Shown here in pieces: positions 15,055-19,172 of a DNA stretch of 39,138 bases. A program made the translations under genes and the position numbers. The first letter of the stretch is position 1, and each line of letters begins with the position of its first letter. The DNA is from Methanolobus sp. (GTDB taxonomy: Archaea > Halobacteriota > Methanosarcinia > Methanosarcinales > Methanosarcinaceae), in NCBI GenBank assembly GCA_029762595.1, contig JARVGJ010000021.1, forward strand, positions 1-39,138, read 5' to 3'. The notes beneath the pieces were generated by a model. The model was given only the letters and a program-made list of their open reading frames with translations, did no database searches and was not told the DNA's origin.

Positions 15055-15119
15055 ACTAATCCTCATGTGATGAATTAATTATTATCCCGAATAAATCAAC
15101 ATCTCCTACTGCTAACTAA

Positions 15120-15280: not shown

Positions 15281-16462
15281 TCACTTATCCATTCTGAGTG
15301 GTAACTGCGTACCTTCAGCTATATTACGAATATACTTGCTCCTGAAATCAGGGTTGCGCATCATACAATGATCAGCCGAACATTTGTAAGCTTCATGCTG
15401 ACCCATCCTTTCCCATATATCCGAAAGATCCTCCTCACGAATATTCCCGAATGACAGCGGAGTATATGCACATGGGAGGATATCCCCACCGGCAGTTGCA
15501 TGCATCCACCTTCTTCCTGCAAAGCAGCCAAACTGATCAGGACCCATAAAATATGGGAAGGCAGTAACCCTTGGACCATCCTCTTTCCTGTTCATTGACT
15601 TCTGGAACCTGCCAAGACTTTCTACATCCTTTGCAGTGATGACCTCATCCTCATGGTCCATCCAGCGACCCACGGCAACTATCTCATAGATGGATAACTC
15701 CTGCATACCCATATTTGCCGCAAAGTTATAGAACTCATCAAGGTCGTCCATGTTATCCGGGGAAACAACCACGAAAAGATCTGCCAGGATATCTGCATCC
15801 AGTATATGCCTTATACCATCCACAGTATCCTTAAAAGCGCCTTCCCGGCCCCTTACACGATCATGTTCCTGCTCATAAGGACTGTCAAGGCTCATATGAG
15901 CTGCAAACAGTCCTGCAGCCTTCAGATCAGCTGCCCTCTTACCATTCAGACCGAAACCCGATGTGAAACATGTTGCAATTGCACGGCTCTTGTCTACCTT
16001 TGCAACCATTTCCTCAAGGTCTTTGCGAAGCATTGTCTCCCCACCATCGAAAGAAATGTAATAAGAGCCGATGTCAATGGCCTGTTGTATTGCACTATTG
16101 ATCTCATCAAATGATAGGACAGGTTCTGCTACAATATCAGCAGCACCGCAATGGATGCAATCATTGGGGCAACTTGTTGTAATCCCAATGGAAAACTGGT
16201 CCGGAACCCTCTTTTTAAGAATAGAGGACACCTGTGAATTGATCATCCTGTTAAATATTCCGCCAGGCATCGGAGGGGCCCATGTTGAGAATATGACTTG
16301 CTCCTCATCTGCATAAATAGGCTTCTCTTCCAGGAAGATCCTGTTGATGCGCTTAATAATAGGTTTTGCAACAGGAGACAATGGCCCTTCGGTATCAAGG
16401 ACAACTTTCCCGTTATCTGTACTTGCATTTACTTTAATTACTGACTTATCGTAAACCCTCAT
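15281..16462 (-). CDS. radical SAM/SPASM-type protein of unknown substrate
   Basis: This 393-residue enzyme has a radical SAM core with the 4Fe-4S cysteines in CPNDCIHC (Cys98, 102, 105) and a SAM-binding FDGGETMLRKDLEEM. The C-terminal region carries further cysteines (FGCFAG, ILPCAYTP, YKCSADHC) in a twitch/SPASM arrangement for an auxiliary cluster. About 90 residues without a recognised domain precede the core. It is not AhbC or AhbD, as it lacks their N-terminal sequence and layout. It follows the prenyl synthase by about 40 bases and seems to be the last gene of the ccmE operon, just before the ATP synthase promoter. A role in methanophenazine or cytochrome assembly is possible but is inferred from position only. 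Confidence 0.85.
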   Translation of the reverse strand: MRVYDKSVIKVNASTDNGKVVLDTEGPLSPVAKPIIKRINRIFLEEKPIYADEEQVIFSTWAPPMPGGIFNRMINSQVSSILKKRVPDQFSIGITTSCPNDCIHCGAADIVAEPVLSFDEINSAIQQAIDIGSYYISFDGGETMLRKDLEEMVAKVDKSRAIATCFTSGFGLNGKRAADLKAAGLFAAHMSLDSPYEQEHDRVRGREGAFKDTVDGIRHILDADILADLFVVVSPDNMDDLDEFYNFAANMGMQELSIYEIVAVGRWMDHEDEVITAKDVESLGRFQKSMNRKEDGPRVTAFPYFMGPDQFGCFAGRRWMHATAGGDILPCAYTPLSFGNIREEDLSDIWERMGQHEAYKCSADHCMMRNPDFRSKYIRNIAEGTQLPLRMDK

Positions 16463-16503
16463 GAAGTCACCTGATAATTGAATAATATAAAAGGAAAACT
16501 GAA

Positions 16504-17373
16504 TTAGAGAATATCCTCCGCAAGCATATCAACAGTAATAAGATCGGTCACAATCTCCAGCTTATCCCTTGCATCTGAAGGCGGGAACAAAGCAAGGACA
16601 TCTTTTGCATCCTGTACACAAATACGCACCTGCTCCAGAGTTTTCTCCACAGCATGAGCATGGTCCATCACCCTCCTGTAAATAAGTGGTAATGTGACCG
16701 ATTCATAAGTTGAGCTCTTGTCTTCCAGCTTGTCAAGATATTCAAGCAGATCATCGACTATCTGATAAGCATTGCCAACATTCTCACCAAAGGACCGTAA
16801 CTTCAGGGCTATTTCCTCATCAGCCCCGGCAACATATGCACCGATTGCGGCACTGGCAGCGAAAAGCGATCCTGTCTTCTTACTAATACACTCAAAATAA
16901 TTCTGTTCCCTAAACTCCTCGCTGACGCTTGAAATATCGATCGTTTCACCTTCAGCCATGTACATGCCAGCCCTGCCAAACTCATGCACCGCATTATTAC
17001 CATATCCGGATATAAGAGATATGGCTTTTGATATCAGGAAATCACCGCAAAGTATGGCCGCAGGAATACCGTACTTCTTATGAGCTGATTCCACACCCCT
17101 GCGTACAAGCCCCCCGTCAAGCACATCATCATGTATCAGAGAAGCAGAGTGTATGAATTCAATGGCCAGTGCGGCATTGATGCCATCATCAGGATTTCCG
17201 CCACACATCTCCGTACATAAAACAAGCACCACAGGCCGTATATTCTTACCGCCGGAACTGCATATATGCAGAAGCATCCTCTTCATCTGAGAGTGATCAT
17301 CCATGGAACTGACCATCTCATCTTTAGCTGCCCTGATAAGCTGGTATTCGTCCATATCTTCAATCTGCATCAT
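16504..17373 (-). CDS. trans-polyprenyl diphosphate synthase, probably long chain (C25)
   Basis: This 289-residue prenyltransferase condenses isopentenyl diphosphate onto an allylic diphosphate. The first Asp-rich motif is DDVLD in FIHSASLIHDDVLDGG and the second is DDLLE in YQIVDDLLEYL, where the last Asp of the usual DDxxD is Glu. The substrate-binding GGKNIRP is near the N-terminus. The residues four and five places before the first motif are Ser and Ala, not the bulky aromatic of archaeal GGPP synthases, which should allow products longer than C20. Methanophenazine needs a C25 tail, so a geranylfarnesyl diphosphate synthase role is likely. It lies 16 bases after ccmE. No strong ribosome site is seen for the ATG ATG start. 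Confidence 0.9.
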   Translation of the reverse strand: MMQIEDMDEYQLIRAAKDEMVSSMDDHSQMKRMLLHICSSGGKNIRPVVLVLCTEMCGGNPDDGINAALAIEFIHSASLIHDDVLDGGLVRRGVESAHKKYGIPAAILCGDFLISKAISLISGYGNNAVHEFGRAGMYMAEGETIDISSVSEEFREQNYFECISKKTGSLFAASAAIGAYVAGADEEIALKLRSFGENVGNAYQIVDDLLEYLDKLEDKSSTYESVTLPLIYRRVMDHAHAVEKTLEQVRICVQDAKDVLALFPPSDARDKLEIVTDLITVDMLAEDIL

Positions 17374-17389
17374 ACATTCAGCCCAGTAA

Positions 17390-17770
17390 TCATTCGGAAT
17401 ATTTCGAAGGACAGCCCATAACTATCCGGTTTGCCTCTATCAGGTCACTGGAAATCATCTTTCCACTTATGCTAATACTTTGTCCTTCTGCAAGATTAGC
17501 GGGAAGTGAACCGGTATACTCGACATTCATTTCAAAAGAGGAATCCTCAAGGTCCAAGAGTGTAAAAGAGGTACCACCTGTCGATATATGCAAAGTGCCA
17601 TCCTTGATCACTCCCATGGTATTCACATCATATCCGACATGCCTTCCAGAGTCTGATGAAAGATCGGAGATCATTAGGTATCCCTGGGAAAGGTCCACAT
17701 TCCAGAGACCCACAAAACCAACAATAGCAATAAAAGCAATTGCTAAAATAGTTTTTTGTTTTTTATCCAT
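17390..17770 (-). CDS. ccmE: CcmE-like haem chaperone with archaeal CxxxY motif
   Basis: CcmE receives haem outside the membrane and passes it on for attachment to apocytochrome c. This 126-residue protein has one N-terminal membrane anchor (TILAIAFIAIVGFVGLW) followed by a small beta-rich domain of OB-fold type. The C-terminal tail MGCPSKYSE holds Cys120xxxTyr124. In the usual bacterial protein the haem ligand motif is HxxxY, while archaeal and some sulfate-reducer CcmE proteins use CxxxY. The start has GAGGT upstream. It appears to be the first gene of an operon with the prenyl synthase and the rSAM protein. No ccmABC or ccmF genes are in the window. Confidence 0.85.
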   Translation of the reverse strand: MDKKQKTILAIAFIAIVGFVGLWNVDLSQGYLMISDLSSDSGRHVGYDVNTMGVIKDGTLHISTGGTSFTLLDLEDSSFEMNVEYTGSLPANLAEGQSISISGKMISSDLIEANRIVMGCPSKYSE

Positions 17771-18125: not shown

Positions 18126-19172
18126 ATGACAAACCCGCCAAGACTCATCGCCTGGGAAACAACCGCCGGATGTAACCTTTCCTGCAAACATTGCAGAGGT
18201 GCCTCAACCGAAAAAAAACCCGATGGCGAACTAACAACCAAAGAAGCATTTCATTTCATTGATGAGATAAAACAAATGGGCAATCCTATACTCATACTGA
18301 GTGGCGGTGAGCCCCTTGTCAGAGACGATATATTCCAGATAGCGGAATATGCCACAGAAAAAGGATTACGCGTGGCCATGGCCACAAACGGGACACTGGT
18401 AACCCCGGCTATAACAAAAAAGATGAGAGATTCAGGAATACAGAGAGTAAGTATAAGTCTTGATGGCTCAAGCCCCATCAACCATGACGATTTTCGCTGT
18501 ATGCCCGGAGCATTTCAGGGTGCAATGAGAGGAATAGAAAACCTTAAAGAAGCAGGTATAGGTTTCCAGATAAATCCTACCATCACAAAGCGCAATGTTG
18601 ACGAGATACCAGCGATCCTTGAAATGGCAAAGAACCTTGGTGCTGATGCACTTCACATATTCCTGCTTGTCCCCACCGGCAGAGGTAAGGAACTTGAAGA
18701 AGAGGAAATTCCCCCTGTCGAATATGAGAGGATACTCAACTGGTTCTATGAACGGCAAAAAGATGCAGGAATCCAACTTAAAGCTACCTGTGCCCCCCAT
18801 TATTTCAGGATAATGCGACAACGAGCGGAAAAAGAAGGTATTGAGATCAGTGTAAAGACCCATGGTTACGAAGCCATGACAAAAGGTTGTCTTGGAGGAA
18901 CAGGATTCTGTTTTGTATCAAGCACAGGAGATGTATACCCCTGCGGATATCTGCCGGCACTTGCGGGTAACATAAAACAACAGAGTTTCAGAGATATCTG
19001 GGAAAACTCAAAAGTATTCAACGACCTGCGTGATGTATCAAAACTGAAAGGAAAATGCGGAAGATGTGAATATAACACCGTATGCGGAGGCTGTCGTGCA
19101 CGTGCCTATGCTGCCACAGGAGATTACCTCGATGAAGAACCATACTGCATATACGTACCTAAAAAACAGTGA
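18126..19172 (+). CDS. ahbD: haem synthase AhbD (radical SAM, Fe-coproporphyrin III decarboxylase)
   Basis: AhbD carries out the last step of the siroheme-dependent haem pathway, oxidative decarboxylation of two propionates of Fe-coproporphyrin III to give haem b. The 348-residue protein has the radical SAM cysteines in CNLSCKHC (Cys16, 20, 23) and the SAM-binding ILSGGEPL. A SPASM region with many cysteines (KGCLGGTGFCF, YPCGYLP, GKCGRCEYNTVCGGCRARAYA) holds the auxiliary cluster. It is the first gene of a run through pyrK. The two decarboxylase genes ahbA and ahbB follow at once, which fixes it as AhbD rather than another rSAM. AhbC is not in the window. Confidence 0.93.
   Translation: MTNPPRLIAWETTAGCNLSCKHCRGASTEKKPDGELTTKEAFHFIDEIKQMGNPILILSGGEPLVRDDIFQIAEYATEKGLRVAMATNGTLVTPAITKKMRDSGIQRVSISLDGSSPINHDDFRCMPGAFQGAMRGIENLKEAGIGFQINPTITKRNVDEIPAILEMAKNLGADALHIFLLVPTGRGKELEEEEIPPVEYERILNWFYERQKDAGIQLKATCAPHYFRIMRQRAEKEGIEISVKTHGYEAMTKGCLGGTGFCFVSSTGDVYPCGYLPALAGNIKQQSFRDIWENSKVFNDLRDVSKLKGKCGRCEYNTVCGGCRARAYAATGDYLDEEPYCIYVPKKQ

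Follow-up and report, generated by a model that had tools for sequence, protein, structure and literature searches.

The ccmE–GFPPS–A locus

In the stretch of DNA analysed here (the window, 39,138 nucleotides from Methanolobus sp.), three genes lie in the order ccmE–GFPPS–A, all on the minus strand, with a first spacer of 16 bp and a second of 41 bp. A preliminary description of this DNA had reported the three genes and their spacing, and the open reading frames, the strand and both spacers were all borne out in the source genome (G000, 2.43 Mb). The genes are as follows.

17390..17770, minus strand: ccmE, 126 aa; PF03100 46.1 bits (cut-off 24.6); C-terminal CPSKY
16504..17373, minus strand: GFPPS, geranylfarnesyl diphosphate synthase-like, C25 tail; 289 aa; PF00348 178.7 bits
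15281..16462, minus strand: radical SAM (rSAM) protein A, candidate methanophenazine biosynthesis enzyme; 393 aa; PF04055 71.3 bits, SPASM domain PF13186 33.4 bits

The first gene of this putative operon, ccmE, lies outside the conserved functional set. Its product is a CcmE protein by its PF03100 score and is of the archaeal CxxxY haem-binding type, the motif appearing as CPSKY near the C-terminus; the orthologue is MA4149 (PMC9084895). A TATA-like TTTATA is found 159 nt upstream of ccmE. The ATP synthase operon begins 214 bp downstream of A (ahaH start at 15066) and has a TATA-like element of its own, CTTTATATG, which makes it look like a unit apart from ccmE–GFPPS–A. Haem genes are divergent from the three genes, namely AhbD at 18126 (over the TIGR04545 cut-off) and AhbA/B-like genes at 19169 and 19638. 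A promoter and terminator scan with bacterial-style models, applied here to an archaeon, gave matches that were rarer than in shuffled sequence.

Besides a step in methanophenazine synthesis, the preliminary description had considered that A might modify a respiratory component, and had listed haem delivery to cytochrome c by ccmE among its clues; comparison across genomes gave the cytochrome c part no support. In these comparisons named records anchor the families f1 (Methanosarcinaceae), f7 (Methanotrichaceae) and f4 (ANME-2), and the identities of f5/g25 (Methanoperedens), f2 (GoM-Arc1) and f3 (other ANME-2) are deduced from gene content. The ccmE gene stands next to A in most Methanosarcinaceae and some ANME-2, but A is kept where ccmE is absent (the eight Methanotrichaceae tested, the gut Methanosarcinaceae G085 and G101, and ten Methanosarcina), and the ccmE-rich g25 lacks A. 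Because so many A-bearing genomes are without ccmE, the ccmE link is incidental, and on the ccmE profile we reject a cytochrome c link of A. A wider proposal, that A takes part in the maturation of haem or cytochrome c given ccmE and the divergent ahb genes, could also draw on the best HMM scores of A, which are to the AhbD/NirJ2 families. However, these scores fall far under the equivalog cut-offs (117 of 500), g25 has several ccmE copies and haem genes without A, and CcmABCEF alone is enough for holo-cytochrome in M. barkeri, an expected A carrier (PMC9084895). We therefore give this proposal the least credence of all those considered here.

The constant partner of A is not ccmE but the methanophenazine-tail enzyme GFPPS, since the GFPPS–A pair recurs while ccmE is often absent. 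A is directly preceded by GFPPS, in the same orientation, at each locus checked in Methanosarcinaceae and Methanotrichaceae and also in G074, a recurrence which means that the arrangement is not due to chance; the adjacency was not seen in ANME-2 groups or f6. The top NCBIfam match of the window GFPPS is NF040627, at 336.8 bits and below the curated cut-off of 600, and the protein is of the same family and in the orthologous position as M. mazei MM_0789, which has been characterized biochemically (PMC3017947). A GFPPS from Ca. Methylarchaeales, in another phylum, has also been described as related to that of M. mazei.

The radical SAM proteins A, B and C

Protein A is a member of the radical SAM superfamily by its PF04055 match (1.4e-19), by the cysteines C98, C102 and C105, and by the rSAM folds recovered with AF2 and Foldseek. 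The window protein has 86% protein identity to one from M. psychrotolerans. A literature search on MA4151 or MM_0788 returned unrelated matches only. Three parts of A are distinguished.

16208..16462, minus strand: N-terminal family-specific domain, residues 1-85; STWxPPxPSxxFxR conserved in A, B and C
16148..16171, minus strand: CxxxCxxC radical SAM cluster motif (C98, C102, C105); invariant in 35/35 A orthologues
15365..15526, minus strand: auxiliary-cluster cysteines C313, C331 and C366; invariant in 35/35 A orthologues

Among the 35 A orthologues, a fourth auxiliary cysteine (C361) is confined to the window protein and five close relatives of the Methanolobus type. The canonical seven-cysteine SPASM pattern, with two auxiliary clusters, was not found in A, which is twitch-like with three invariant cysteines. 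As only these three are invariant, the auxiliary cluster of A may leave one iron site open, perhaps for substrate, by analogy with MoaA. One A orthologue, at G112:C10:59616-60788, has a single in-frame TAG, representing either pyrrolysine readthrough or an error.

A exceeds no NCBIfam equivalog cut-off, the best score being 117 bits against 500. It falls short of the lines for AhbD (TIGR04545, 117.3/500), AhbC (69/650), PqqE (94.2/381) and SkfB (57.3/300), and likewise of those for NirJ and the mycofactocin maturases. AhbC, AhbD and NirJ are the best-scoring NCBIfam relatives of all three proteins A, B and C, and share with them a radical SAM cluster plus an auxiliary cluster, but the scores are 117-143 bits against cut-offs of 500-650, the gene partners differ and A, B and C have the extra N-terminal domain. 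In A the predicted fold of this domain is beta-beta-alpha-beta-alpha; modelled as residues 1-96, it matched nothing in the PDB at E <= 0.001, RRE included. The AlphaFold2 model of A (pLDDT 79, pTM 0.80) has an rSAM/twitch fold.

The solved folds nearest to this model are the RiPP maturases SkfB (Z 23.9) and PqqE (Z 22.8), with SuiB also near, and peptides are frequent substrates of SPASM/twitch enzymes. It might be supposed from this that A matures a ribosomal peptide or a protein, such as the ATP synthase or a respiratory complex. However, unlike SkfB and PqqE, A has three invariant auxiliary cysteines, an N-terminal domain without a structural match (the failure to match an RRE in the PDB being weak evidence) and no precursor peptide that could be seen: no short conserved open reading frame lies beside A across families. 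Furthermore, the ATP synthase adjoins A in Methanosarcinaceae only, and the partners of A are prenyl-lipid enzymes. A role for A as a maturase is thus highly improbable.

The source genome encodes two further members of the family, B (contig C33, 43%) and C (contig C11, 34%), and most A-bearing genomes have exactly these three. In the source genome and in M. acetivorans (G148, which we take to be this species), B adjoins a GGR-type flavoprotein and a UbiA prenyltransferase, and in the source genome C is located apart from the A and B loci. The CxxxCxxC motif and C313, C331 and C366 are nearly invariant across A, B and C, and H200, R204, E255, G312 and W350 are among the residues that are invariant. 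In the tree, C of Methanosarcinia groups with C of the deep lineages, the Methanosarcinia A and B pair as sisters, as do the two other deep-lineage rSAMs. Trees uniting A with either deep-lineage gene were strongly rejected, so it seems that the A/B split occurred twice or that gene conversion acted. Genome G362 (1.5 Mb, complete, without mcrA or MqnA/D) encodes one distant family member (contig C9, L144:8711-9916), whose tree position is unsure, on a long branch.

In Methanosarcina, C has lost every cluster cysteine (M. acetivorans, L113:6750-7961; G155, L116:7133). The gene is nevertheless intact and under purifying selection, with a dN/dS of 0.18 over 404 codons, compared with 0.08 for A and 0.11 for B, and its maintenance despite the loss of the cysteines suggests that C of Methanosarcina is a conserved radical SAM pseudoenzyme. 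Its probable role is that of a partner to A or B.

Distribution of the trio and of menaquinone genes

The preliminary description had proposed that the radical SAM gene be profiled against methanophenazine and cytochromes across methanogens. Our profile covered 60 genomes of one phylum: 34 with the trio A, B and C, 25 others, and G308, which was set aside. The rSAM family was absent from the sampled mcrA-bearing Halobacteriota outside the methanophenazine lineages and from menaquinone users, in line with a role of A in methanophenazine synthesis. MqnA/D (PF02621) was found in none of the 34 trio genomes and in 14 of the 25 others; the carriers without the trio are in f2, f5/g25, f5/g26, f10 and f11. 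Eight of the remaining 11 (f8, f9, f15, f17, f20 and f28) have mcrA and neither the trio nor MqnA/D, and we read these as methanogens without methanophenazine. Two more (f14, f19) also lack mcrA, and the eleventh is G362, with its single distant member.

Fisher's test gave p = 3e-7 per genome and p = 0.10 per family, both of which disregard ancestry. Behind the co-distribution stand only a few independent gains or losses in one phylum; its real strength is the repeated gene linkage together with several independent switches. Methanophenazine has been measured in few trio lineages, and its presence is mostly inferred from the lack of menaquinone genes.

One such switch lies within f5: the genera g25 and g26 carry MqnA/D but not the trio, and the reverse holds for g27 (G074), in which the trio occurs together with GFPPS, UbiA and GGR and MqnA/D is missing. 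The pattern fits two earlier reports, one of a Methanoperedens enrichment free of methanophenazine (PMC5244752) and one that predicted methanophenazine use for a basal Methanoperedenaceae genome lacking menaquinone genes (PMC7327174).

The genome set aside, G308, has MqnA plus a B-type rSAM (contig C36, L150). As this contig matches one of G032 (C129, L097) with the same score pattern, the exception is likely to be contamination or misbinning. In both MAGs, which are of different families, the B-type match covers the same query range and has an in-frame TGA.

A proposed route to methanophenazine

Acetate- and methyl-using methanogens and ANME-2 methanotrophs respire with methanophenazine as their electron carrier. 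The biosynthetic pathway of methanophenazine or its genes have been stated to be unknown (PMC6315138, PMC8546582, PMC7327174; 2018, 2020, 2021), and our search of open-access papers found no later one naming methanophenazine genes. The preliminary description had suggested that A might take part in a step of methanophenazine synthesis, a suggestion strengthened by the profile and by the ties of A to GFPPS, UbiA and a GGR-type reductase.

The last two of these are encoded beside B. UbiA (PF01040, 142.8 bits) has DGGGP synthase as its closest solved relative (2.2e-13), and GGR scores 117.6 bits with TIGR02032, under the cut-off of 158.8. B adjoins both genes in Methanosarcinaceae and in G074, and in f3 UbiA and GGR are adjacent. 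The UbiA orthologue is found at E <= 1e-97 in all trio Methanosarcinia and at >= 1e-17 elsewhere; that of GGR at E <= 1e-56 in all trio genomes but G025 and at >= 1e-38 elsewhere. DGGGP synthase makes prenyl ethers, the class of compound to which methanophenazine, with its 2,3-dihydro natural tail, belongs.

We consider it likely that A, B and C, with GFPPS, UbiA and the GGR-type flavoprotein, make methanophenazine, and that the trio builds the phenazine head, because GFPPS, UbiA and GGR cover synthesis, attachment and saturation of the tail. GFPPS would supply the C25 tail, an activity shown in earlier work for the M. mazei orthologue. UbiA would join this tail through a prenyl ether bond to a hydroxylated aromatic head, in the manner of DGGGP synthase with its own substrates, and the GGR-type enzyme would saturate the double bond nearest the head, in the first isoprene. 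By elimination, A, B and C would then form the phenazine or hydroxyphenazine head anaerobically, each active rSAM cleaving SAM at its CxxxCxxC cluster; C, which in some lineages may have lost part or all of its catalytic ability, would probably serve there as a partner subunit.

All of the gene neighbours are tail or attachment enzymes, and the trio could for this reason be thought to serve methanophenazine through the prenyl tail or a prenylated intermediate, with the head made by other, unseen enzymes. However, the known structure shows a single change to the tail, the saturated first unit, and a GGR-type enzyme would be enough to bring this about; three rSAMs would be more than the task needs, and the set offers no other candidate for the head. 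We regard this possibility as unlikely, and favour synthesis of the head by the trio.

Two known pathways invite comparison with head synthesis of this kind. In the futalosine menaquinone pathway (MqnA-MqnE, MqnC), as proposed for the trio set, rSAMs build a respiratory aromatic head anaerobically and a UbiA protein prenylates it, and that pathway occupies a complementary set of genomes; but MqnA/D is not in trio genomes, A, B and C are SPASM/twitch rSAMs, and the product is another. The bacterial phenazine pathway (PhzA-G, PhzO) also yields a phenazine head but, unlike our proposal, works without radical SAM chemistry, and its PhzO hydroxylates with O2. The trio would add an anaerobic route to a phenazine. 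PhzF, furthermore, is absent from some methanophenazine methanogens (PMC5244752).

A, B and C are the best candidates yet for methanophenazine biosynthesis, and the six-gene set of GFPPS, A, UbiA, GGR, B and C poses a direct knock-out question in Methanosarcina acetivorans. The trio would also serve as a genomic marker distinguishing methanophenazine from menaquinone users, and as such it already predicts the carrier in a basal genus of Methanoperedenaceae and in mcrA-less lineages.

Compact forms of the set occur in deep Halobacteriota. In f12, f18 and f22, three rSAMs lie within 5 to 10 kb, together with GGR, a UbiA-like membrane protein (F3), a PBP-fold protein (F2) and a fourth, shorter rSAM. 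In f16 the set is divided between two loci, and in G276 and G304 the F2–F3 portion is on a separate contig. One F3 member is over the Pfam UbiA line (PF01040, 36.8 vs 34.2), but hhalign gave no significant link between F3 and the Methanosarcinia UbiA, and F3 had no PDB match. F2 and F3 were not found in Methanosarcinia, which carry the other UbiA.

The genomes with these clusters in f12, f18 and f22 (L131-L138, L143) are small (0.9-1.6 Mb) and without mcrA. Since the compact cluster is held by such genomes, non-methanogens may make methanophenazine or a related carrier. A wholly new anaerobic route, in which three rSAM paralogues, one of them cluster-less in Methanosarcina, assemble the head and which also operates in organisms that do not make methane, is a more tentative reading, to which we give slightly less than even chances.

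The cluster in f12, f18 and f22 might instead make a different prenylated compound, and its presence in lineages without mcrA could be taken to mean that the trio everywhere makes another lineage-specific prenylated membrane compound, for example a novel quinone or an archaeal lipid in modified form. Against this, biochemical work ties the GFPPS of M. mazei to methanophenazine, an enzyme is already assigned to hydroxyarchaeol (Mori 2015, cited in PMC10821996), and the mutual exclusion of trio and menaquinone genes suggests that the product is a respiratory carrier, so that we find this general explanation very unlikely and retain methanophenazine as the product of the trio.

F2 (L133:13376-14254 and relatives, alignment A1) is fixed beside the UbiA-like gene in the deep clusters. 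It is THI5/SsuA-like and cytoplasmic-looking, apparently without a signal peptide. An MqnA-like role for F2 was rejected: its matches are to THI5 and sulfonate-binding proteins rather than to PF02621, and it has no Methanosarcinia orthologue. The gene for the fourth rSAM (L133:9003-10079 and relatives) overlaps the rSAM gene upstream of it, and its nearest family, at a score below the cut-off, is TIGR03961 (PTO1314).
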